This document shows positions 701 through 38,036 of a stretch of 59,111 nucleotides of DNA, in pieces. The notes beneath the pieces were generated by a model, which made no database searches, was not told where the DNA came from, and saw only the letters and a list, made by a program, of their open reading frames with translations. Position 1 is the stretch's first letter. The number at the start of each line of letters is the position of its first letter. The translations under genes were made by a program, and so were the position numbers. Source of the stretch: Spirochaetales bacterium (GTDB lineage Bacteria > Spirochaetota > Spirochaetia > SZUA-6 > RPPD01); contig JAFGJO010000056.1 in NCBI GenBank assembly GCA_016929065.1, forward strand, positions 1-59,111. The letters are read 5' to 3'.

Positions 701-750
701 AAAAGGATTTGAAAAAGAGGAATTCTTTCAAAGGTAATGAAAAATACTCT

Positions 751-2355
751 ATGAATTATGAAGTTACTGCGTTAAAAAAAAGACCTCAAAACTTTGATGA
801 TTTCGTCGGACAGGATTTTGTCGTTGAAACGTTGAAAAACTCACTTGAATCAAAAAGAATCGCCAATGCATTTTTATTTTCAGGGCCCCGCGGTGTCGGA
901 AAAACCTCTGCTGCCCGGGTATTGGCAAAAGCACTTAATTGTAGTGCAGGCATCACGTCTTCCCCCTGCGGAAAATGCAGCTCCTGTACAGAGATCACTG
1001 CGGGAAATGCACTTGATGTGATAGAGATTGACGGAGCCTCACATACCAGCGTGAATGATGTCCGGGAAATCAGGGATGAGGTGCTCTTTGCGCCGTCAAG
1101 CAGTAGATATAAAATATATATCATTGACGAAGTGCATATGCTCTCCAACAATGCCTTTAATGCTCTTTTAAAAACGATTGAAGAACCACCGCCGTATATA
1201 GTCTTTATCTTTGCAACAACCGAGATTCACAAGGTGCCGGCGACAATCCGCTCGCGGTGCCAGCAGTATAATTTCCGTCTTATTTCCATTGATGAAATCA
1301 TAAATAAATTGCAGACAGCAATCCAGGATATGAAAATTGAAGCCGATGCCGAATCACTCATATGGATAGCAAAAGAAGCGACCGGCTCACTCAGAGATGC
1401 CTACACATTATTTGACCAGGTTGTCTCCTTCGCCGATGGTAAAATTCAGTTGAAAAAAATACAGGAAAAACTCGGTATAGTCGGAATGGAGGAGATTGAG
1501 GTTCTGATTGCTGCGATCGCGGAAAAAAAATCAAAACCCGTTATAGAAATTGTCAACACCATCATCGCGAAAGGGATTTCCGAGGAACAAGTGTTGATCA
1601 GTCTTGCTGAATATTTTCGTAACCTATTGCTTTTAAACTCAGGCATCACCAAGGAATCACTTTTGGGGTATTCGCTTGAAAGCTTTAAAAAAGATATTAT
1701 CAATGCTTTTACTACTGCACAGATAGAAAAATCGCTCACCCTTATATTTGAACTGCTGCGCAGCCTGAAATTCTCACTCAATCAGAAATTTGAGCTTGAA
1801 CTGCTTGTACAAAGACTCTGCAATATTTCACGATATATTACACCAGAGGAAATTCTGCATCGCCTGGAGCATTTAAAAAACCAGCTGGGTGCAGGTACTG
1901 TCAATCCTGTATCCGCTCCGGCTTCATTACCCAAACACCCGATACAGGTTGACTCTTCCGATGATTATGAAGAAGATGACGATCAGGAAGAATCAGATTC
2001 GTATTCTGTCATGGAACCAGGAATTCTTACAGGCGATACCCTTCTTGTAAAAATGATTGAAGCAATACGCAGAAAAAAACTTGCTCTCGCTTCTGCTTTA
2101 CAGAAAAATGTACAGGCAAAAATAGACGGTACTGCCCTTTCCATATTTTTTCATGAAGCAGACAGGTATTCATTTGAATTCGTGACAAAGGAAAGAATGA
2201 CACTCACCGAACTCGCAGGATCAATCTCCGGAAAAAAGCTGTCTGTCGAGACGTTGCTGATGGAAAAGGACCTTTCAGCCCGAAAAGAAGATCAAGATGA
2301 CAGCGAAAATATTATCAAGAAAGTATTTAAAGGCAGTGTCATCCAGGAAAATTAA
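751..2355 (+). CDS. dnaX: DNA polymerase III subunits gamma/tau
   Basis: Clamp-loader ATPase that loads the DnaN sliding clamp onto primed DNA. Seen: a typical DnaX start (MNYEVTALKKRPQNFDDFVG), Walker A GPRGVGKT at about residue 45, a four-cysteine zinc module with CGKCSSC, Walker B IIDEVHML, and the sensor/arginine-finger RSRCQQYNF. A C-terminal domain and an acidic linker (DDYEEDDDQEESD) give about 534 residues, short for tau but in range for spirochaetes. I chose ATG 751 because family homology begins there. An in-frame TTG at 709 would add 14 residues, but AAAAGG lies too close to it. It leads a compact dnaX-ybaB-recR operon right after the SRP RNA. I saw no obvious slippery frameshift site, but did not search systematically. 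Confidence 0.93.
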   Translation: MNYEVTALKKRPQNFDDFVGQDFVVETLKNSLESKRIANAFLFSGPRGVGKTSAARVLAKALNCSAGITSSPCGKCSSCTEITAGNALDVIEIDGASHTSVNDVREIRDEVLFAPSSSRYKIYIIDEVHMLSNNAFNALLKTIEEPPPYIVFIFATTEIHKVPATIRSRCQQYNFRLISIDEIINKLQTAIQDMKIEADAESLIWIAKEATGSLRDAYTLFDQVVSFADGKIQLKKIQEKLGIVGMEEIEVLIAAIAEKKSKPVIEIVNTIIAKGISEEQVLISLAEYFRNLLLLNSGITKESLLGYSLESFKKDIINAFTTAQIEKSLTLIFELLRSLKFSLNQKFELELLVQRLCNISRYITPEEILHRLEHLKNQLGAGTVNPVSAPASLPKHPIQVDSSDDYEEDDDQEESDSYSVMEPGILTGDTLLVKMIEAIRRKKLALASALQKNVQAKIDGTALSIFFHEADRYSFEFVTKERMTLTELAGSISGKKLSVETLLMEKDLSARKEDQDDSENIIKKVFKGSVIQEN

Positions 2356-2364
2356 GAGGTAATT

Positions 2365-2694
2365 ATGAATCCCTTTGAGTTAATGAAAAATTTTAAAAAC
2401 ATTCAGTCCAAAATGAGTGAAATGCAGTCAAAAATGGATACCATCACCGCGATCGGCTCGGCAGGCGGCGGAATGGTAAAAATAACCCTCAATGGAAAAA
2501 TGGATATGGTTTCGACAGAAATCAGCGATGAAGTCTTTTCCGGAGAAGACCGGCTCATGCTTCAGGACCTGATACGTGCAGCATACACAGATGCTTCTGT
2601 GAAAATAAAGGAAAAACTGAGGGAGGAAATGTCTTCGCTCACCGGGGGAATGGACATTCCAGGGATGGATATACCGCCGAATATGTTTGGATAG
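2365..2694 (+). CDS. ybaB: YbaB/EbfC nucleoid-associated protein
   Basis: Small DNA-binding protein of 109 residues, the usual length for the YbaB/EbfC family, whose homodimer grips DNA with tweezer-like helices. Seen: an N-terminal helix rich in Met, Lys and Gln (MKNFKNIQSKMSEMQSKMD), the central strand region GGGMVKITLNGKMDM, and a Gly/Met/Pro-rich C-terminal tail. The ribosome site AGAGG sits 6 nt before the ATG. It lies 9 nt after dnaX, and its stop overlaps the upstream alternative start of recR. The dnaX-ybaB-recR order is widely conserved. Confidence 0.92.
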   Translation: MNPFELMKNFKNIQSKMSEMQSKMDTITAIGSAGGGMVKITLNGKMDMVSTEISDEVFSGEDRLMLQDLIRAAYTDASVKIKEKLREEMSSLTGGMDIPGMDIPPNMFG

Positions 2695-2698
2695 TCAC

Positions 2699-3283
2699 AT
2701 GAACAGTCTTGAACGGTTGATCCAGGAATTCTCAAAACTCCCCGGTCTGGGAAAAAAAAGTGCCTCAAGAATTGCCTATCATCTTCTGAAAACCGATGAA
2801 CATAAGGTGGATGCGCTTGTCAACGCAATTACAACAGTAAAAAAGACCCTGAAGGAATGCGGTGTCTGCGGAAATTACGCAGATTCCAATCCATGCCCAT
2901 TGTGCAGTGATCCGCATCGGGACAATTCCGTTATTTGTATCGTTGAAGAAGCCAGGGACATCCTGACGATTGAGGCAACCCATGAATATAAAGGGCTGTA
3001 TCATGTTCTGGGAGGTGTTCTTTCCCCCATTCAGGGTATTGGTCCGAATGAACTGAGGATACGCGAACTATTGATACGGATACAACCCCCTGTTCAGGAA
3101 TGTATTATTGCCACAAATCCGACAGTCGAAGGGGATACAACCGCCTTGTACCTCGGGAAAATTGTCAAAGATACCGGCATTGTGGTGTCAAGAATTGCAC
3201 TCGGGCTCCCGGTCGGCGGCGACATCGAGTATGCGGACAGGCTCACCATCCTGCAGGCAATGAAGGCACGAACAAGACTGTAA
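2699..3283 (+). CDS. recR: Recombination mediator RecR
   Basis: RecR works with RecF and RecO to load RecA on gapped DNA; recF lies 3 kb downstream here. Seen: an N-terminal helix-hairpin-helix (FSKLPGLGKKSASRIAYHLL), a C4 zinc finger (CGVCGNY...CPLC), and a Toprim domain with VEEARDIL and a conserved C-terminal GGDIEYADRLTI. The length of 194 residues is normal. ATG 2699 gives the standard N terminus. An upstream in-frame TTG at 2687, inside the end of ybaB, is possible but less likely. Confidence 0.93.
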   Translation: MNSLERLIQEFSKLPGLGKKSASRIAYHLLKTDEHKVDALVNAITTVKKTLKECGVCGNYADSNPCPLCSDPHRDNSVICIVEEARDILTIEATHEYKGLYHVLGGVLSPIQGIGPNELRIRELLIRIQPPVQECIIATNPTVEGDTTALYLGKIVKDTGIVVSRIALGLPVGGDIEYADRLTILQAMKARTRL

Positions 3284-3650
3284 TCCGCCCGTCAATTGTG
3301 TAGGTTTTTTAGCGAATATTTATACTTCAATACCTGAATAATTGTTGAAAAGTACTTGATATTTATATACAATAAGCGTCTATCCTAGTTGTTAACAACT
3401 TGTGGATAAATTAAGCAGTCCCGTTGTTGGACATAACAGTATTTATTTATACAGTATAGAATTATGTAAATATATAAAATTGCAGCGGTAATCATCATAA
3501 TTACCTACTATATATAGAATTAGAAGATTATAGTCTTGATTTATTTTTTTTTGGCAAATTATTGTATACAATTGTATAAAATTTAATACAATGCAAAAAT
3601 CAAAAATGTGGATAAGTTGTTAATTATTTTGTGTGAATCCGGAGAATGCG
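3284..3650 (+). promoter_or_regulatory. dnaA upstream region with DnaA boxes and promoter
   Basis: AT-rich stretch with no gene. It holds two perfect DnaA boxes in the TGTGGATAA orientation (3401-3409 and 3607-3615). A candidate sigma70 promoter is TTGGCA 3551-3556, 18-nt spacer, TATAAA 3575-3580. The second box lies between this promoter and the dnaA start, which would suit autorepression of dnaA. A palindrome GTTGTTAACAAC lies just before the first box. The promoter assignment is inference. Confidence 0.6.
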
Positions 3651-5030
3651 ATGCCGAACCAGAAATGGGATTATGAAGTATTTTGGAAAGAAGTGACAAA
3701 TACAATCCGACATGAGATATCGGAGCAGGAATATGTGATGTGGTTTAATAATATGGAATACTCTTCGTCGGCCGAAGAGGAAATAAGACTTTCGGTCCCC
3801 TCATCATTTTATAAAGACCAGGTATCCAAACGGTATCTGCCATTTATCGAAGAAAAACTGTTCGAACTCTCCGGCCAGCCGGTAAAAATATCCTTCACGG
3901 TCAAGGCCAAATCAAAAACTTCGTCATCCGAGGAGAAAAAAACAGCCGCAAAGGAAAAAGAAAAGAAACCGGCTCCAAAAGTGATAAAAACTCACCCCCG
4001 CCTCAACTCGGAATACAGTTTTGAAAAGTATGTTATTGGAGAAAACAATTCATTTGCTGCGAATGCCGCTTTTGCGATATCCAAGAACCCGGGGACAGCC
4101 TACAATCCATGTCTCATTTATGGCGGAGTCGGACTGGGAAAGACCCATCTGATTCAGGCAATCGGAAATCAGGCCTATAACGAGTTTTCCACCATGAAAA
4201 TTGTGTATGTTACCGCAGAAGAATTCACAAACGAATTTATTCTTTCTATTAAAGAAAAATCCTCCCATAAATTCAAAAATAAATACAGAAAGGTAGACAT
4301 TCTTCTTGTCGATGACATCCATTTTCTGCCGGGCAAAGTCGAAACCCAGGAAGAGCTGTTTCACACCTTTAATGCGCTGTATGATGCAAACAAGCAGATG
4401 GTATTTACCTGCGACCGGCCGGTATCAGAATTGAAGGCGCTCTCGGACCGGCTTCGAAACCGTTTTGAACGGGGTTTGAATGTCGATCTGCAGCCGCCAA
4501 GTTTTGAGACACGGATCGCGATTCTCAAACAAAAGATCGAGAACAAAAATGTGGACATTCCGGATGAAGTCATAGAACTTATCTGTAAAAACATCACGAC
4601 GAATGTCCGAGACCTTGAGAAAGCACTCACCAAACTCGTTGCTTATGCAGACCTGGTTAATAAAAAAATAACCCTTGAAATTGCCCAGCGTCAGCTCCAG
4701 GACTTTTTTACCCAGCCATCGCAGAAAAATATCTCACTCGATTTGATTCAAAAAGTGGTTGCCGATTACTTTGGCGTGTCGAGTAACGACCTGAAAGGCA
4801 AAAAAAGGACGAAAGCAATTGCTTTTCCCCGTCAGGTTGCGATGTTTATCAGCCGGGAAATCACCGAATATTCCACAACAGAGGTTGGACTGGACTTTGG
4901 CGGCAGGGATCATACCACCGTCATGCATGCGTGTCAAAAAATAGAAAACACACAAAAAACAGATCCGACGCTGGAACCGACAATTCAGCACTTGATTAGA
5001 ATGATACGAGAATATAAAATAAACAACTAA
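3651..5030 (+). CDS. dnaA: Chromosomal replication initiator DnaA
   Basis: AAA+ initiator that binds DnaA boxes and melts the origin. Seen: domain I at about 1-90 (WKEVTNTIRHEISEQEYVMWF), a charged Lys/Glu linker as domain II, Walker A GGVGLGKTH, Walker B ILLVDDIHFL, sensor motifs, and the C-terminal helix-turn-helix with signature DFGGRDHTTVMHACQKIE. Length 459, normal. ATG 3651 is preceded by GGAGA with good spacing. A GTG at 3633 would add six residues but lacks a site. Perfect DnaA boxes lie on both sides of the gene. Confidence 0.96.
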   Translation: MPNQKWDYEVFWKEVTNTIRHEISEQEYVMWFNNMEYSSSAEEEIRLSVPSSFYKDQVSKRYLPFIEEKLFELSGQPVKISFTVKAKSKTSSSEEKKTAAKEKEKKPAPKVIKTHPRLNSEYSFEKYVIGENNSFAANAAFAISKNPGTAYNPCLIYGGVGLGKTHLIQAIGNQAYNEFSTMKIVYVTAEEFTNEFILSIKEKSSHKFKNKYRKVDILLVDDIHFLPGKVETQEELFHTFNALYDANKQMVFTCDRPVSELKALSDRLRNRFERGLNVDLQPPSFETRIAILKQKIENKNVDIPDEVIELICKNITTNVRDLEKALTKLVAYADLVNKKITLEIAQRQLQDFFTQPSQKNISLDLIQKVVADYFGVSSNDLKGKKRTKAIAFPRQVAMFISREITEYSTTEVGLDFGGRDHTTVMHACQKIENTQKTDPTLEPTIQHLIRMIREYKINN

Positions 5031-5227
5031 TAGTATGTGAAAACATTGTGGAAAAAGCAGGCACATACCAAGAGTTGTTGAATACCTTAATAATATGTTA
5101 ATAAGAACATAATGTTATCCACAATATATTTTGTTTTTATATAAAGAATTATTATGGTTATCAACAATTATCCTGTGCCTACTACCACTACTACTAATAT
5201 TAATATTAATTAATAGGAGTAAGAGAA
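5031..5227 (+). other. oriC: Probable replication origin (oriC) unwinding region
   Basis: The dnaA-dnaN gap holds a perfect DnaA box TTATCCACA (5115-5123), a one-mismatch box TTATCAACA (5158-5166) and a reverse one-mismatch box TGTGGAAAA (5047-5055). Right after the last box comes a short GC-richer spacer, then a run of trinucleotides of the CTA type (5179-5196) running into ATATTAATATTAATTAAT. This order (DnaA boxes, GC-rich cluster, DnaA-trio, AT-rich tract) matches the bacterial basal unwinding system described for Bacillus subtilis. Calling it the working origin is inference. Confidence 0.8.
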
Positions 5228-6334
5228 ATGATATTTAATGTTGATAAAGACATTCTTCTAAAAGAAATGGCAATTTCCCATGAAACAATTTCCACAAAGA
5301 GTACGATATCAATTCTCTCGAATGTATTGATTATCGCTGAAAATGATTCTCTTGTTATAAAAGCAACAGATTTAAAAATATCATTTTCTACAAAAATACC
5401 AGTGACGGTAAAACAGCCGGGAAGTGTAGCAGTTTTTTGTGATCGTCTTCTTGATATCCTCAGGTCGTTGCCTTCCGGAGAAATTGAGTTTGCATTACAG
5501 GAAAATCTTGTATTGCTGATCACCCCAAAATCGACCCGTGCACATTTTGAACTCAAATGCATACAGGCCGATAAATTCCCACCGCAGCAGGAAGTTGACA
5601 AAGCCCTGTTTTTTGAGTTTTCGCAAAAAGATTTCATTGAAATGATTTCAAAAACAATATTTGCCATTTCCGATGATGAAACACGGTTTTTTTTAAATGG
5701 TGTTTATTTTGAAAAAAATGATTCTAAACTCAATATGGTAGCATCGGATGGAAGACGGTTATCTTTTATTTCAAAAGACATAAAAGCGGATATTGACGAC
5801 ATTAATGGCATTATTATTCCACCCAAAATCCTGAATATTGTCAAAAAAAATACTCCCGGTGAAGGGAATTTATCACTGGCAGTAACCGATAAAAATATTT
5901 TTGTAAAAATTGACAACAGGCTTTATACATCAAACCTGATTGACGGTAAATTTCCAAATTATAAAAAGATCATTCCCGAACAAAATGAACATTTTTTTCT
6001 TGTAAAAAAACAGATACTGGCGGAGTCATTAAAACGCGTTTCGGTCCTTGTGGAAAACAAGACAAGGAGCGTATTTTTTAATATCACAGAAAATTTGATA
6101 TCAGTGAGTTCTGAAGAGAGTGATATAGGGATGGCCCGTGAGGAACTTGAGTGTGAGTATAGCGGACCGGAATATACCCTGACATTTAATTATTTATATA
6201 TACTCGAACCGTTGAATGTCATCGATGACGAATATATCCGGATGGATTTTAATGATCCAAAAAAAGCAGTAATCATGAAAGCGAAAGGCGAACAGGATTA
6301 CATGAATATCGTGATGCCGCTGCAAAGTGAATAA
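5228..6334 (+). CDS. dnaN: DNA polymerase III beta sliding clamp
   Basis: Ring-shaped processivity clamp. The 368 residues have the three-fold repeated clamp fold: typical N terminus (MIFNVDKDILLKEMAISHET), the central FLNGVYFE and SDGRRLSFI strands, and the C-terminal ending YMNIVMPLQ. GGAGTAAGAGAA before the ATG supplies the ribosome site. The stop codon overlaps the recF start (TAATG), so the two are translationally coupled. The gene follows the origin directly. Confidence 0.95.
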   Translation: MIFNVDKDILLKEMAISHETISTKSTISILSNVLIIAENDSLVIKATDLKISFSTKIPVTVKQPGSVAVFCDRLLDILRSLPSGEIEFALQENLVLLITPKSTRAHFELKCIQADKFPPQQEVDKALFFEFSQKDFIEMISKTIFAISDDETRFFLNGVYFEKNDSKLNMVASDGRRLSFISKDIKADIDDINGIIIPPKILNIVKKNTPGEGNLSLAVTDKNIFVKIDNRLYTSNLIDGKFPNYKKIIPEQNEHFFLVKKQILAESLKRVSVLVENKTRSVFFNITENLISVSSEESDIGMAREELECEYSGPEYTLTFNYLYILEPLNVIDDEYIRMDFNDPKKAVIMKAKGEQDYMNIVMPLQSE

Positions 6335-7437
6335 TGGGTTTTGCATCACTCAGATTCAGCAATTACAGAAATCTTGAAAATGAATCAATAACATTCTCGT
6401 CTGAACAGATATTTCTTATTGGAGAAAACGGCCAGGGGAAAACAAACTGTATTGAAGCACTTTATTCCTTGTGTTACGGCTCATCGTTCAGAACGCACAA
6501 TGACAGGGATATTATAAAACTTGATGAAGATACCTCATATGTTGTTGGAACGATTGTTGATGAAGAGAGCAGTGAACAGGATATCTGTGTTTCACTCTTT
6601 GCAAATAAAAAAAAAGAAATACTGGTAAACGGAAAAAAAATACATGACCGGAAAGATCTTCTCCAGATAATTCCCTGTGTTGTTTTTTCACATGATGATC
6701 TTGAATTTATCAAAGGAACACCTGCCTCAAAACGCAAGTTTTTTAATCAGACTTTGTGTTTGTATGATATTTATTATCTTGATGCGCTGAGAAATTATTC
6801 CAAAGTGGTTTCTGCCCGAAATCTTTTGCTGAAACAGAGAAAAAATGAACTTCTCGATGTCTATACACATCAGGTTGCAGAAATAGGATTTCACATCCAG
6901 ATGCAGCGCAGGGAGATGATTGAAAAATTCAATATTGTATTCAGGGATTATTTCAAGAAAGTTTCGCGGCTTCCCGGTGAGATTTCAATTGTGTATTCAC
7001 CATCCTGGAAACAGACTGAAAGTTATGAAACAGCAATGAGTATCATGAATAAATCCATCAACCGGGATATGCAGTACGGAACGACGACGACCGGGCCGCA
7101 CCGTGATACTTTTTTATTTTTGTATGACGGCAAGGATTTTTGCAGTATCGGTTCAACCGGACAGCTGCGGCTGTTATCGATTATTCTTCGGGTTGCCCAG
7201 GCGCATTTTTTTCATGAATATACCGGGAAAAAACCATTGCTGCTGCTCGATGATGTTCTTTTGGAACTCGACAAGAAGCGTCGCGAGTTGTTTGTAAACA
7301 ACCTGCCTGAATACGAACAGGCATTCTTTACTTTTTTGCCGGATGAAGACTATAATGCCTTTAAAAGGGATACTACCGAAATATTCCGGGTGGAAAAAGG
7401 ACGATTCAGGCTGTGGACAAAGCAGGACATATTTTAA
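6334..7437 (+). CDS. recF: DNA replication/repair protein RecF
   Basis: SMC-like ATPase that acts with RecR and RecO at gaps. Seen: N-terminal LRFSNYRNLENESITF, Walker A GENGQGKTN at about residue 31, an ABC-type signature STGQLRLLS at about 270, and Walker B LLLLDDVLLELD. Length 367 is normal. The start codon shares bases with the dnaN stop. The end overlaps the next gene by 25 nt, so dnaN-recF-DUF721 forms one tightly coupled unit. Confidence 0.95.
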   Translation: MGFASLRFSNYRNLENESITFSSEQIFLIGENGQGKTNCIEALYSLCYGSSFRTHNDRDIIKLDEDTSYVVGTIVDEESSEQDICVSLFANKKKEILVNGKKIHDRKDLLQIIPCVVFSHDDLEFIKGTPASKRKFFNQTLCLYDIYYLDALRNYSKVVSARNLLLKQRKNELLDVYTHQVAEIGFHIQMQRREMIEKFNIVFRDYFKKVSRLPGEISIVYSPSWKQTESYETAMSIMNKSINRDMQYGTTTTGPHRDTFLFLYDGKDFCSIGSTGQLRLLSIILRVAQAHFFHEYTGKKPLLLLDDVLLELDKKRRELFVNNLPEYEQAFFTFLPDEDYNAFKRDTTEIFRVEKGRFRLWTKQDIF

Positions 7438-33723: not shown

Positions 33724-35469
33724 TTAAAAAACAGTTTTATTCCTGAGTTTTACTTTTCCCGAAAAATATCCCAACACGAGAATCAGCAGGACAATATGAA
33801 CAATTGACAGGAGAATGATACAAAACACAAACCCCATTGCATAAAATGAAAAACTGATGAAAATGCGGTGCAGAAAAAGAAAAAATCCGATGATGTTGGC
33901 CATGACAAACGGAACCACAGGAACAAGAAGATACAAATGCCGTACCGATGAGGCCTCCTGCTGTACTGAGTGTTTCATGCCGATGACCAGGCATATCAAT
34001 GTAAGCATAATGATGAAAAATGGAGTCAATACTCTTCCCGCTATTTCAATATAAATGAGTTCGGGCAGCTGAGCGTGATGAGCTACAAACGGCAGCACGA
34101 GAACCAGATCCGCGATATTCATGGTGTCAAAATCTTTTTGGGTTGATCCAAAAACTGTAATATTTTTTGGACGGTTTTCCATCTTGGTATCGGGAAATAA
34201 TAAAATGCCATATAGTTGATCGATTGGCGGGGTTCCCTGATACACCGTGAGCCGGGTTTGTTTTTTTGGATCGATCCGGTCAATGCCATTGATAATAATA
34301 TGGTCTTCCAGAATTTTTCCAATTGGTGCCAGATAATGATACTGCACTGCATCCGATGCGTTAAGTCCGATCACTTCAATATTTTTCAAGAAAATTCCGT
34401 CACCTATCTGTACAATCGACTCAATGGTAATGATTTCACGGACTGTGTTTGTATCTCTGTTGAAAAAAACTATCGGGCCGGTTTTCAATGCATCAAACGA
34501 CAGTATGAGTTCCGCTTCATGGGTGAAAAAGGATACCTGGGGCAGCAATTGGCGGCTTTGCTGGAGGTAATCCCTGATTGTCTCATCAAAAGGAAATTGT
34601 CTGTTAAGATCAAGAAAAATAAAATAGGCCCTGATAAAATCAGGATGGTCGGTGCTGGTCAGTGCATCATAGCCCTGCTGTTTTGTGGAAAACAGGTATG
34701 CTGCGCGGGATTTTTCCCTGGACTCGATCCCTTCAAAATCGGATTCACGGGCAATACTTGAAATCCGTAATGCCTCCTTGTGGGAGTTGTCAATTGCAAG
34801 GACCTGCCGGGCAAAATAATATGCATCGACATAATTCTTTTTTTCAAGTGCGTTTTCTGCCCGGGTCAGTAATTGTGTTGAATCAAAACTTTCGAGTCCT
34901 GATTCACCTGCTGTTCTGAATACATACTCCCTGAATTCAGCAGGGGATAACTCGGCGATAAGCCTGGAATTTTCACTTATGGTAAGCGGATTGTGCCTGT
35001 CCACGGCAAGGGACAGCCGAATATATTCAACCGCAGTGACAAGATCATTTTCTTTTTCTTTTTCATGTGCTTTTTTGAAAATAGAGGTGGAAAAAGTACT
35101 TAATGCCTTTTTCTCGGACAGGTTTTTTCGGACGACCGGGACAAGCGCTTCGTGGAACACGATATACATTGAAGTCAGCAATACGATCGAAATGATGATG
35201 GAAGTCATTTTTTTACTGGCAATAATTTTTTGCTGGTAAACAGGAGGCGATAAAAACAAGGAATAAGCTATAAGTGCTCCTGCGCACTGGAGTGCTGCAA
35301 AGTGTGCGATAAAATTCAAGAATGCATTCCCCCAGATCACTTCCGGACGAAAGGGTACTATGATCTGATTTGTTTCACCGTTCAGGAAGGCCATAAGAAC
35401 AAAAAAACCGAAACCGAGGACAAGAATGCCAAATATGACTGATGCAGGTGTTGCAACCGGATTACGCAT
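33724..35469 (-). CDS. Membrane protein, 3 TM - TPR/beta domain - 3 TM
   Basis: About 581 residues from ATG 35469. Three helices at the N terminus are followed by a large hydrophilic part. Its first half has TPR-like helices (NDLVTAVEYIRLSLAVDRHN; EKKNYVDAYYFARQVLAIDN) and its second half is beta-rich. Three helices end the protein. The segment before the last helices, YIEIAGRVLTPFFIIMLTL, resembles the R..P motif at that point in LptF/LptG permeases. The start overlaps the stop of the upstream gene (ATGCGTAA), so the two proteins are made together. The LptFG-like idea is inference from topology; a spirochaete-specific orphan is the alternative. Confidence 0.7.
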   Translation of the reverse strand: MRNPVATPASVIFGILVLGFGFFVLMAFLNGETNQIIVPFRPEVIWGNAFLNFIAHFAALQCAGALIAYSLFLSPPVYQQKIIASKKMTSIIISIVLLTSMYIVFHEALVPVVRKNLSEKKALSTFSTSIFKKAHEKEKENDLVTAVEYIRLSLAVDRHNPLTISENSRLIAELSPAEFREYVFRTAGESGLESFDSTQLLTRAENALEKKNYVDAYYFARQVLAIDNSHKEALRISSIARESDFEGIESREKSRAAYLFSTKQQGYDALTSTDHPDFIRAYFIFLDLNRQFPFDETIRDYLQQSRQLLPQVSFFTHEAELILSFDALKTGPIVFFNRDTNTVREIITIESIVQIGDGIFLKNIEVIGLNASDAVQYHYLAPIGKILEDHIIINGIDRIDPKKQTRLTVYQGTPPIDQLYGILLFPDTKMENRPKNITVFGSTQKDFDTMNIADLVLVLPFVAHHAQLPELIYIEIAGRVLTPFFIIMLTLICLVIGMKHSVQQEASSVRHLYLLVPVVPFVMANIIGFFLFLHRIFISFSFYAMGFVFCIILLSIVHIVLLILVLGYFSGKVKLRNKTVF

Positions 35470-36454
35470 TGGGGTTTTCGCTCCTTCTGCGTGGAAATAA
35501 TATAAAATCAAAAAGGAAAAACAAACTGCTGAAAAATATCAGAATGGAATAGGGAATAAGACTGATGAGTGACAAATCGCTTGTTATGTATTTTGCCTGC
35601 GGGAGAAGGGTAAATGAGATAAAGTTATACAATGTCAGTACCAGAAATAAAACAAGCAGTGTCAGCATGATATTTGCTATTCTCCACCGTGAAAAGCGCA
35701 GAAACACAGATGAACTGAGCACCAATGCGACGAGCATAACACACAAAAGCAGCCGTTCCTGGTTCTCTGCCCAAAGCAGGGTATCAAAATGTTTCTGCAG
35801 CGGGGTGTACAGGTCATAAAGACTCTGAAATGATTGTTCCGGCTGAAACAGATTGGCTTCCGTTTTTCGGGGTGAAAGCGAAATTCTTTTTGTGCCTGCT
35901 TTATCAAGAAATATGGTACCGGTCTCTGTGGAATGAAACTGAATCCGGTCAAACGCTGTAATTCTTGGATATGCTCCGGAGTCTTTGATGACGATCAGGG
36001 GAGAAAGAGATATTCCAGTCCTGGTACCAAAGAAAAAATATCCCTCATTGACTGCGACAAGCTGTTGAGGATAGGTGAGGTCTCGCAATCCGGTTTTCAG
36101 CTCTTCACCGCGGAGCATTTCTGTCAGCTGCGGGTTTATGTTCTTTTTAATCAATGCCGGGGCGAATATGAGTACACCCACTGCCAATGCTCCAATAGAC
36201 AAATACGAAATGATTCTGATACCCGGATTTTTCTGCATTCGAATACTGGTGAGAAACAGTGAAATCAGCACCGAGGGAAGGATCATCACCAGAAATGCGT
36301 TTGGAATCAGAGTGAGTATATTTTCAAAATTAATGGAAGGGAAAAGGAAAAGCCGTGAGCCCATGAAACCAATACTGTAAAAAAAAGAGGAAACAATGAG
36401 TACACCAACCAGTACAATTACGAATAATACTATGACGATAATACTGTCTTTCAT
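35462..36454 (-). CDS. Membrane protein, 3 TM - soluble domain - 3 TM
   Basis: 330 residues, the upstream partner of the previous gene. Helices at about 5-27, 45-67 and 77-98, then a soluble beta-rich domain of about 110 residues (VNEGYFFFGTRTGISLSPLI), then three helices (LLLCVMLVALVLSSSVFL; IMLTLLVLFLVLTLYNFISF; LIPYSILIFFSSLFFLFDFI). Its last 8 bases overlap the start of the next gene. I do not recognise the family. The matching topology of the pair suggests a heterodimeric envelope machine. Confidence 0.7.
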   Translation of the reverse strand: MKDSIIVIVLFVIVLVGVLIVSSFFYSIGFMGSRLFLFPSINFENILTLIPNAFLVMILPSVLISLFLTSIRMQKNPGIRIISYLSIGALAVGVLIFAPALIKKNINPQLTEMLRGEELKTGLRDLTYPQQLVAVNEGYFFFGTRTGISLSPLIVIKDSGAYPRITAFDRIQFHSTETGTIFLDKAGTKRISLSPRKTEANLFQPEQSFQSLYDLYTPLQKHFDTLLWAENQERLLLCVMLVALVLSSSVFLRFSRWRIANIMLTLLVLFLVLTLYNFISFTLLPQAKYITSDLSLISLIPYSILIFFSSLFFLFDFILFPRRRSENPNA

Positions 36455-36593: not shown

Positions 36594-38036
36594 TTGCCGC
36601 ACCTTTACTTTGAATTGTTTTCATTGTATTCTCAAACCGCCGTGATTGCTATTTTATCCAAGCTTTTTAAACATAAACGGGTAGTTTTGCCTATCATCTA
36701 TCTTTTTTTCCTCGTGGTCGGAATCCTTGTGTTCAATCTGGTTGTTGTGGACTACATTGACGGATTTTCTGTCTCTATCAATTCCATTGATTTGGGAATT
36801 GTAAAAAGCAAAAGCGATGTACAGTCCAGACTTTCGGTGATCGAAAAACAGATTGAATATGAGAAGAATATTGATATTGAATTTGAGGATCATCTGATTC
36901 TCTATTCACCAATTGAAACAACCCTTGATCGGTTCACCGTGCAGCAGACACTCGATCAGAATTTGAAAAACCATATCAGCTATAAATGCAAAGTGTGGGC
37001 ACTTGTGGTGAACAACAAGGAATCTGTCTTTTGCCGGACAAAGGAAGAAATTGAAGAATTGGTGAATCGGATTGAAAAAAAATTCGTTCCAAAGGCCGGG
37101 AGAGGCGAGGTCATCGAAAACCTGACGATGCGGATAATGGAACCATATACCATCGAGCAGGCATATTCATATTATGATGCTATAAAAACACTGGATGAAG
37201 CGGTTGATTATGCACTACAGGGAACTCAGGAGATTGAAACATACGCTGTACAGCAGGGAGACAATTTTTTTACGATTGCGAAAAAATTTGATATCAATTT
37301 TACCCAGCTTGTTCGGGCAAATGAAGAGTTTGATCCCGAAAAATTGAAAGCAGGTGATAAAATCAGCCTTTCTCTTAAAAAACCTGTTCTTAATGTCGAG
37401 TCAAAATACCGGTTTATCAAGGAGGTGACCATTCCGCCGCCGGTACGGGTCGTTCTGGATTCAGAATTACTTCGTACGGAACGAAAGGTTGATATTCAGG
37501 GAGAAAGTGGAAGAAAACAGATTTTTGCTGATAAAACGTATATCAATGAAAAGCAGTTTGAAGTAGTGATTGTGAAAGAAATCCCCATTAAGGCTCCGAA
37601 ATTGAGACAGCTCCGGATCGGAACACGCCGGACACCGAATGATATTCTAGTCTCCGGGGCGGTTCTCCCTCCGGGGATGGGTGTTATTTCAGATTATTTC
37701 GGTGCGCCACGCGGGGGCGGCCGGCGTCATCTCGGGATCGACATTGCAATACCCACCGGTGCGAGTGTGCTTGCCTATAGGCCAGGGACAATTCTTCGCG
37801 CAGGGTGGGATGGTACCGGATACGGAAATCTTGTAACAATTGCCCATGATGACGGGACCGAGACCAGGTATGCCCACAACAGTAAAATTCTCGTGGAGGT
37901 GGGACAGCGAGTGGCCAAAGGCGATATTATTGCATTGTCGGGGAATACAGGAAAAAGTACCGGGCCTCACATCCACTTTGAAATTCGGGTGGGCGGGAAA
38001 CCGGTTGATCCCCTCCTCTATCTCAGATCACATTAA
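36594..38036 (+). CDS. M23 peptidase with LysM and G5 domains
   Basis: 480 residues. An N-terminal membrane anchor (LPIIYLFFLVVGILVFNLVV) is followed by a domain of about 170 residues, a LysM motif (YAVQQGDNFFTIAKKF), a G5-type domain (about 285-345) and a C-terminal M23 metallopeptidase. Zinc ligands are intact: HLGIDIAIP for the H..xD pair and the late GPHIHFEIR for HxH. Such proteins cut peptidoglycan cross-links or activate amidases during growth. The start is uncertain: TTG 36594 has no good ribosome site, and other TTG/GTG codons follow closely. Confidence 0.87.
   Translation: MPHLYFELFSLYSQTAVIAILSKLFKHKRVVLPIIYLFFLVVGILVFNLVVVDYIDGFSVSINSIDLGIVKSKSDVQSRLSVIEKQIEYEKNIDIEFEDHLILYSPIETTLDRFTVQQTLDQNLKNHISYKCKVWALVVNNKESVFCRTKEEIEELVNRIEKKFVPKAGRGEVIENLTMRIMEPYTIEQAYSYYDAIKTLDEAVDYALQGTQEIETYAVQQGDNFFTIAKKFDINFTQLVRANEEFDPEKLKAGDKISLSLKKPVLNVESKYRFIKEVTIPPPVRVVLDSELLRTERKVDIQGESGRKQIFADKTYINEKQFEVVIVKEIPIKAPKLRQLRIGTRRTPNDILVSGAVLPPGMGVISDYFGAPRGGGRRHLGIDIAIPTGASVLAYRPGTILRAGWDGTGYGNLVTIAHDDGTETRYAHNSKILVEVGQRVAKGDIIALSGNTGKSTGPHIHFEIRVGGKPVDPLLYLRSH

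Follow-up and report, generated by a model that had tools for sequence, protein, structure and literature searches.

Two overlapping genes encode a pair of membrane proteins

In the window, by which we mean the whole 59,111-nucleotide stretch of DNA that was analyzed, two overlapping genes encode membrane proteins that we refer to as A and B (Table 1). Two starts were considered for the B gene: the ATG at 35469, which yields a product of 581 aa that matches the relatives, and the first in-frame TTG at 35511, which would yield 595 aa. An AAGGAG sequence is present 11 bases upstream of the ATG, and the overlap of exactly 8 bases between the two genes, which had been part of the original prediction for this locus, holds for this start. 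The divergent neighbor of A (36594-38036) is the gene of an M23 peptidase that also contains LysM and G5 domains. At 703-7437 of the window there are consecutive ORFs with the P-loops GPRGVGKT, GGVGLGKT and GENGQGKT, which we take to resemble those of dnaX, dnaA and recF, and which perhaps mark a replication-origin region.

Table 1. Coordinates of the A and B genes and of the parts of B in the window
Feature	Positions	Strand	Basis and description
Protein A gene	35462..36454	(-)	ORF call; 330 aa, predicted six-TM LptF/LptG fold with periplasmic beta domain; coupling helix absent between TM2 and TM3
Protein B gene	33724..35469	(-)	ORF call; 581 aa, predicted LptG-like six-TM protein; start set by alignment with relatives
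A/B gene overlap	35462..35469	(-)	8 bases, the last of A and the first of B
TPR-like helical insertion of B	34500..35154	(-)	Residues ~106-323; helices in the model, fold and profile matches
Jellyroll-like beta part of B	34200..34473	(-)	Residues ~333-423; strands in the model, inside the LptG structural alignment

A and B are distant homologues of LptF and LptG in their predicted folds

Template-free AlphaFold models were produced for both proteins, with 19 aligned sequences as input for A and 22 for B, and in each model there were three transmembrane (TM) helices, a soluble domain containing beta strands and a further three TM helices (A: pLDDT 78.1, pTM 0.74; B: pLDDT 79.4, pTM 0.68). When the A model was searched with Foldseek, LptF and LptG accounted for each of the best 12 rows (E 4.6e-6 to 0.13), and in the VIA-align comparison 15 LptF/LptG entries scored Z 12.2-10.5, with the next fold at 6.5. 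For B, seven Foldseek rows had E<=0.001, every one of them LptG, and the best VIA-align match was 8ufh_G, an LptG (Z 18.2, rmsd 5.5, 314/327 aligned), among 12 LptF/G entries at Z 18.2-14.4 that were followed by TPR proteins. The rmsd values of the LptF/G rows were large, at 3.8-11.5 for A and 4.3-8.5 for B. The segment YIEIAGRVLTPFF is located at the start of TM4 and aligns with the 'E....R...P'-like segment found there in canonical LptF/LptG.

At the level of sequence, hhalign scored A against canonical LptF/G at 97.2% and 95.5%, with reversed controls at 0.4% and 0.5%. The profile-profile score of B against canonical LptF/G was weak (33.6%, reversed 1.8%; with another alignment 25.5%, reversed 5.7%) and insufficient by itself, and the identity of B rests on Pfam and fold. 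In a PF03739 search of its own genome the B protein of the window scored 27.8 bits, or 28.4 with neighbors, against a cut-off of 27.9. Across the order, 23 genomes have B and PF03739 matched it in 17, 10 of them above the curated cut-off and the best at 46.5 bits; these matches were to the C-terminal half of the profile, and one A protein (G008) matched its N-terminal positions 5-77 at 20.1 bits. Scanning of single proteins (E<=0.01 for A) gave LptF_LptG matches for 13/22 B members (best 9.7e-12) and for only 2/19 A members, and TIGR04408 (LptG) matches for 4/22 B members. There was no Pfam and no NCBIfam match to the A and B of the window by hmmscan, and a single-sequence search of genome contigs returned no match. 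Against solved structures, the A sequence gave three chance-level matches only and the B family gave TPR matches together with LptG at E 0.012.

As such, A and B were assigned as distant homologues of LptF and LptG on the basis of their modeled folds, and for B homology is also apparent from profile matches to the sequences of many of its relatives. Since direct comparison of the A and B profiles gave weak scores (13.5% and 1.0%), the designation of the two proteins as sisters rests on their common fold.

Net charges of the predicted loops were +7 (cytoplasmic) and +1 (periplasmic) for the A of the window and +6 and -11 for its B, and across the families the cytoplasmic charge was the higher in 15 of 19 A rows and 19 of 22 B rows. 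Based on this bias, the soluble domains of both proteins are predicted to be periplasmic, as in LptFG, and the models and charges together describe the arrangement of an LptF/LptG fold: N-terminus inside, three TM helices, a periplasmic jellyroll and three TM helices. These results bear out the original prediction of two proteins with LptF/LptG-like topology and a permease-like motif before the last helices, and neither of the two results named as refuting it was obtained, as structure prediction and fold search recovered a jellyroll-like domain and the loop charges did not indicate the opposite membrane orientation.

B has a TPR-like insertion

The TPR-like section that had been noticed in one partner corresponds to an alpha-helical stretch of the B model that precedes the beta strands. 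Since the LptG alignment spans model range 2-572, this block appears to be inserted after TM3 and before the beta domain. TPR chains were the second-best fold for B (Z 10.5, residues 193-245, 53 residues, rmsd 1.6) and the B family profile matched designed or engineered TPR proteins (E 9.3e-14); both the profile and the fold matches identify tandem 34-residue helix-turn-helix repeats. Scanned singly, few of the 22 B members matched Pfam TPR models, and the B of the window matched none.

A and B form a second pair that is widespread in spirochaetes

Canonical LptF and LptG are present elsewhere in the genome of the window (contig C60; 248.7 and 230.4 bits to PF03739), and A and B are thus a second, divergent pair. 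PF03739 matches outside A/B were identified in 26/26 genomes of the order and 30/30 class genomes probed. In five of five f24 genomes there were exactly two such matches, on the opposite side of the chromosome from A/B, so that A/B is additional to them. The canonical LptF of the order (for instance L001 1435-2766) is ~420-450 aa, longer than the adjoining LptG, and its jellyroll is separated from TM4 by a long charged stretch. Other ORFs of ~450-520 aa in G048 (G048:C1:740780-741016), G071, G036 and G314 also matched PF03739 weakly (19-25 bits, profile 54-137), and are possibly a further relative or chance matches.

Of the 26 genomes of the order, 23 have a relative of B that shares its layout, and in 39 of 39 class loci, from regions that had been selected for having B, A was immediately upstream on the same strand (30 by profile and 9 by position and hydrophobic layout), so that every one of these loci has two subunits in adjacent genes. 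This degree of conservation is beyond chance and agrees with the proposal that the two proteins are coupled. The genes overlap in 33 of the 39 loci and their spacing is between -150 and +25 bases in 37, with the leftmost start taken. The order-wide alignment was too divergent for a pattern search and a narrower one of 22 loci was therefore used. Of 22 named spirochaete loci, 20 had a recognizable A in the adjacent-gene arrangement, with the match in L138 covering a small part only; the other two were L124, a locus that begins within B, and L137, in which A was not detected.

The spirochaete distribution that had been suggested for the pair is borne out by relatives of B in ~246 of 394 sampled class genomes. 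This number derives from a recount with a class-wide alignment (269/394), from which 23 weak rows, counted by hand, were subtracted as likely TPR cross-matches; their E values were 8.6e-11 to 8.6e-4, and those of all others were 2.1e-37 or better. An earlier class count of 257/394 was discarded because TPR-only matches had inflated it, and the phylum scan (236/392) contains weak rows likewise, so that its total is not usable. The pair is present in family f24, whose genomes are ~0.9-1.9 Mb and which we infer to be Borreliaceae, and in the Treponema-like family f29. Weak rows aside, B was missing in the class scan from families f14, f31, f22 and others. One f29 genome, G098 (1.1 Mb, 99%-complete), which is probably that of a T. 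pallidum relative, has no B homologue, though its genus mates G314 and G324 have B, and this may reflect loss of the pair in a reduced, host-bound lineage. The absences from whole families and from G098 indicate that the pair is dispensable in some spirochaetes.

The LptB-coupling helix is absent from both proteins

In E. coli the coupling glutamates E84/E88 are strictly conserved, LptB affinity depends on them, and their replacement by arginine is lethal, as described in PMC5082905. By eye, all 30 aligned canonical LptF/G sequences have a coupling segment with a glutamate between TM2 and TM3, and a motif search identified it in 26 of these (15/17 LptF and 11/13 LptG, a split made by length in which L155 of the F set looks LptG-like). 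Conversely, the motif search found no instance in 38 and 39 A rows, two sets that have genomes in common, or in 57 B rows. TM2 and TM3 of A are joined by a direct turn, 'R-I-L-x-K-P-G-x-R', with an 8-residue gap relative to canonical LptF/G, and alignment of B with canonical LptF/G revealed no such motif between these helices; the linkers in the models have only 4 (A) and 7 (B) residues. The LptB-coupling helix and its conserved glutamate are therefore absent from both A and B.

An ABC ATPase gene was not a conserved neighbor of the pair either, as ABC-like ORFs were found in only 3 of 39 class loci and none was found in the window. One LptB per genome scored above the cut-off in all eight genomes tested. 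In the genome of the window it is on C12, apart from A/B and from canonical LptFG, and since the canonical proteins are thus also unlinked from LptB, linkage is not decisive. Taken together, the missing helix and the lack of a conserved nearby ABC ATPase indicate that A/B is not an ordinary LptB2FG exporter, and led us to file the two proteins as LptF/LptG-fold homologues, not as subunits of such an exporter. The original suggestion of an exporter with a linked LptB-like ATPase was consequently not sustained.

The explanation that we prefer, although we hold it with no more than even confidence, is that A and B together make up a heterodimeric lipid gate of the inner membrane, one that lacks direct LptB coupling and whose TPR domain recruits a periplasmic partner; the dimer, the lipid cargo and the absence of ATP drive are each what we infer. 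The heterodimer would resemble LptFG in having two periplasmic jellyrolls and a cavity that faces the membrane, and it would gate an amphiphile, either a phospholipid or a glycolipid, or pass it out of the inner membrane to an acceptor in the periplasm. Docking of this acceptor, or of an envelope partner, might fall to the TPR domain of B, and with no direct coupling to LptB the transfer would be passive, following a gradient, or else a partner protein would drive it. Somewhat more tentatively, we propose that the pair is an ATPase-free lipid conduit of LptFG type in the inner membrane, a widespread spirochaete paralogue of the canonical exporter whose TPR arm reaches to a dedicated periplasmic partner.

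ATPase binding by another route would be compatible with the missing coupling helix. A/B could then be a genuine second ABC permease, working through a rebuilt contact either with the LptB that serves the canonical pair or with a different ATPase. This idea draws on the LptF/LptG fold, on the conserved basic turn of A ('RIL-KPG-R') that replaces the coupling helix and could be such a contact, and on the presence of LptB in each of the eight genomes, but we judge it to be unlikely given that the coupling motif is in none of the A or B rows, that no linked ABC gene is conserved among the 39 loci and that the eight genomes have a single LptB each above the cut-off.

Gene neighborhood and other possible functions

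The gene most often found near the pair was murA (EPSP_synthase family; 27/39 loci, mostly convergent). Other neighbors, for which the family names each come from one example, were STAS (20 loci), WecG/TagA glycosyltransferase (17), sigma-54 activator (16), DnaJ-domain protein (14), S41 protease (13), PspA/IM30 (13) and a Trans_reg_C protein (12). The PspA/IM30 gene is upstream of A/B on the same strand, at a distance of ~2-4.4 kb, or 7 kb in L113 (L077-L115), and together with the Trans_reg_C neighbors it possibly reflects a link to envelope stress. A small CesT_Tir_1/YbjN-like protein is encoded upstream of the pair in 9/39 loci (for example, L113 1320-1706). The neighborhood is envelope-flavored and an ATPase is not among the recurrent neighbors.

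The PspA/IM30, STAS, sigma-54 activator and Trans_reg_C neighbors, and the lack of a linked ATPase, would also suit a non-transporting envelope scaffold or sensor that reuses the LptFG fold, recruits periplasmic proteins through the TPR domain and reports the state of the membrane, for example to PspA. We consider such a role improbable, however, as the jellyroll-like domain and the TM4 motif have been retained, which a mere scaffold would not need, and 26 of the 39 loci showed no PspA linkage. That the pair exports spirochaete lipoproteins is very unlikely: it is carried by spirochaetes rich in surface lipoproteins (f24, the inferred Borreliaceae), but nothing in this analysis ties A/B to lipoproteins, the 1.1-Mb Treponema-like genome is without it, and the canonical Borrelia Lpt system has been argued not to transport lipoproteins (PMC10353723). 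A function in periplasmic flagella or the spiral cell body was rejected as the main explanation on FliF co-occurrence counts and seems extremely improbable, for although FliF was present in 28/31 probed genomes with the pair, and the 10 probed f14 genomes had neither, it was also present in 20/37 without the pair and absent in 3 with it, and presence of the pair tracks clades.

If the lipid-gate explanation is correct and no ABC ATPase is involved, the LptFG fold would be able to serve as a lipid gate that is passive or driven by a partner, a role that is new for the family as far as the literature searched shows. A second LptF/LptG-fold pair that has acquired helical repeats and no longer has the helix for holding the ATPase motor may handle envelope lipids without that motor. 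For the supply of lipids to the spirochaete outer membrane, which in many species is without LPS, A/B offers a concrete gene pair for study, one that has been kept from the order of the window to Treponema-like and Borrelia-like genomes and that is called hypothetical where it has been noticed.

Comparison with known systems

No description of the A/B pair was found in the literature searched. AsmA/TamB proteins are bridge-like lipid carriers, and if our best explanation holds A/B would likewise carry lipid through the periplasm with no ABC motor, but the architectures are different. The insertion of B resembles tetratricopeptide repeat domains in its helix-turn-helix repeats, but these are degenerate.

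In locus L084 (genome G217) the gene order is S41 protease, an ORF that we take to be CarD-like, A and B. This fits the order around BB_0354/BB_0353 and, presuming that these tags are the counterparts of A and B, the second pair in B. burgdorferi appears by gene order to be BB_0354/BB_0353. BB_0353 and BB_0354 are listed as hypothetical proteins in PMC6711536, which was the only source in the literature searched in which the tags BB0353/BB0354 occurred. The B. burgdorferi proteins BB0807/BB0808 (PMC10353723) also have the LptF/LptG fold and are from a spirochaete without LPS, but they are the canonical Borrelia pair, whereas A/B is the second pair; that paper contains none of the terms 'BB0352', 'TPR' or 'paralog'. 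In T. pallidum, LptF/LptG have been reported as TP0883/TP0884 (PMC8407342).

The closest known system is LptF/LptG of the LptB2FGC LPS exporter (PF03739, with TIGR04408 for LptG). A/B has in common with it adjacent genes, the motif at the start of TM4 and, in the models, a fold in which a periplasmic jellyroll follows the first three of six TM helices. It differs in that neither subunit has the coupling helix or its glutamate, that a linked LptB is lacking, that B has the TPR-like insertion and that A/B coexists with the canonical pair.
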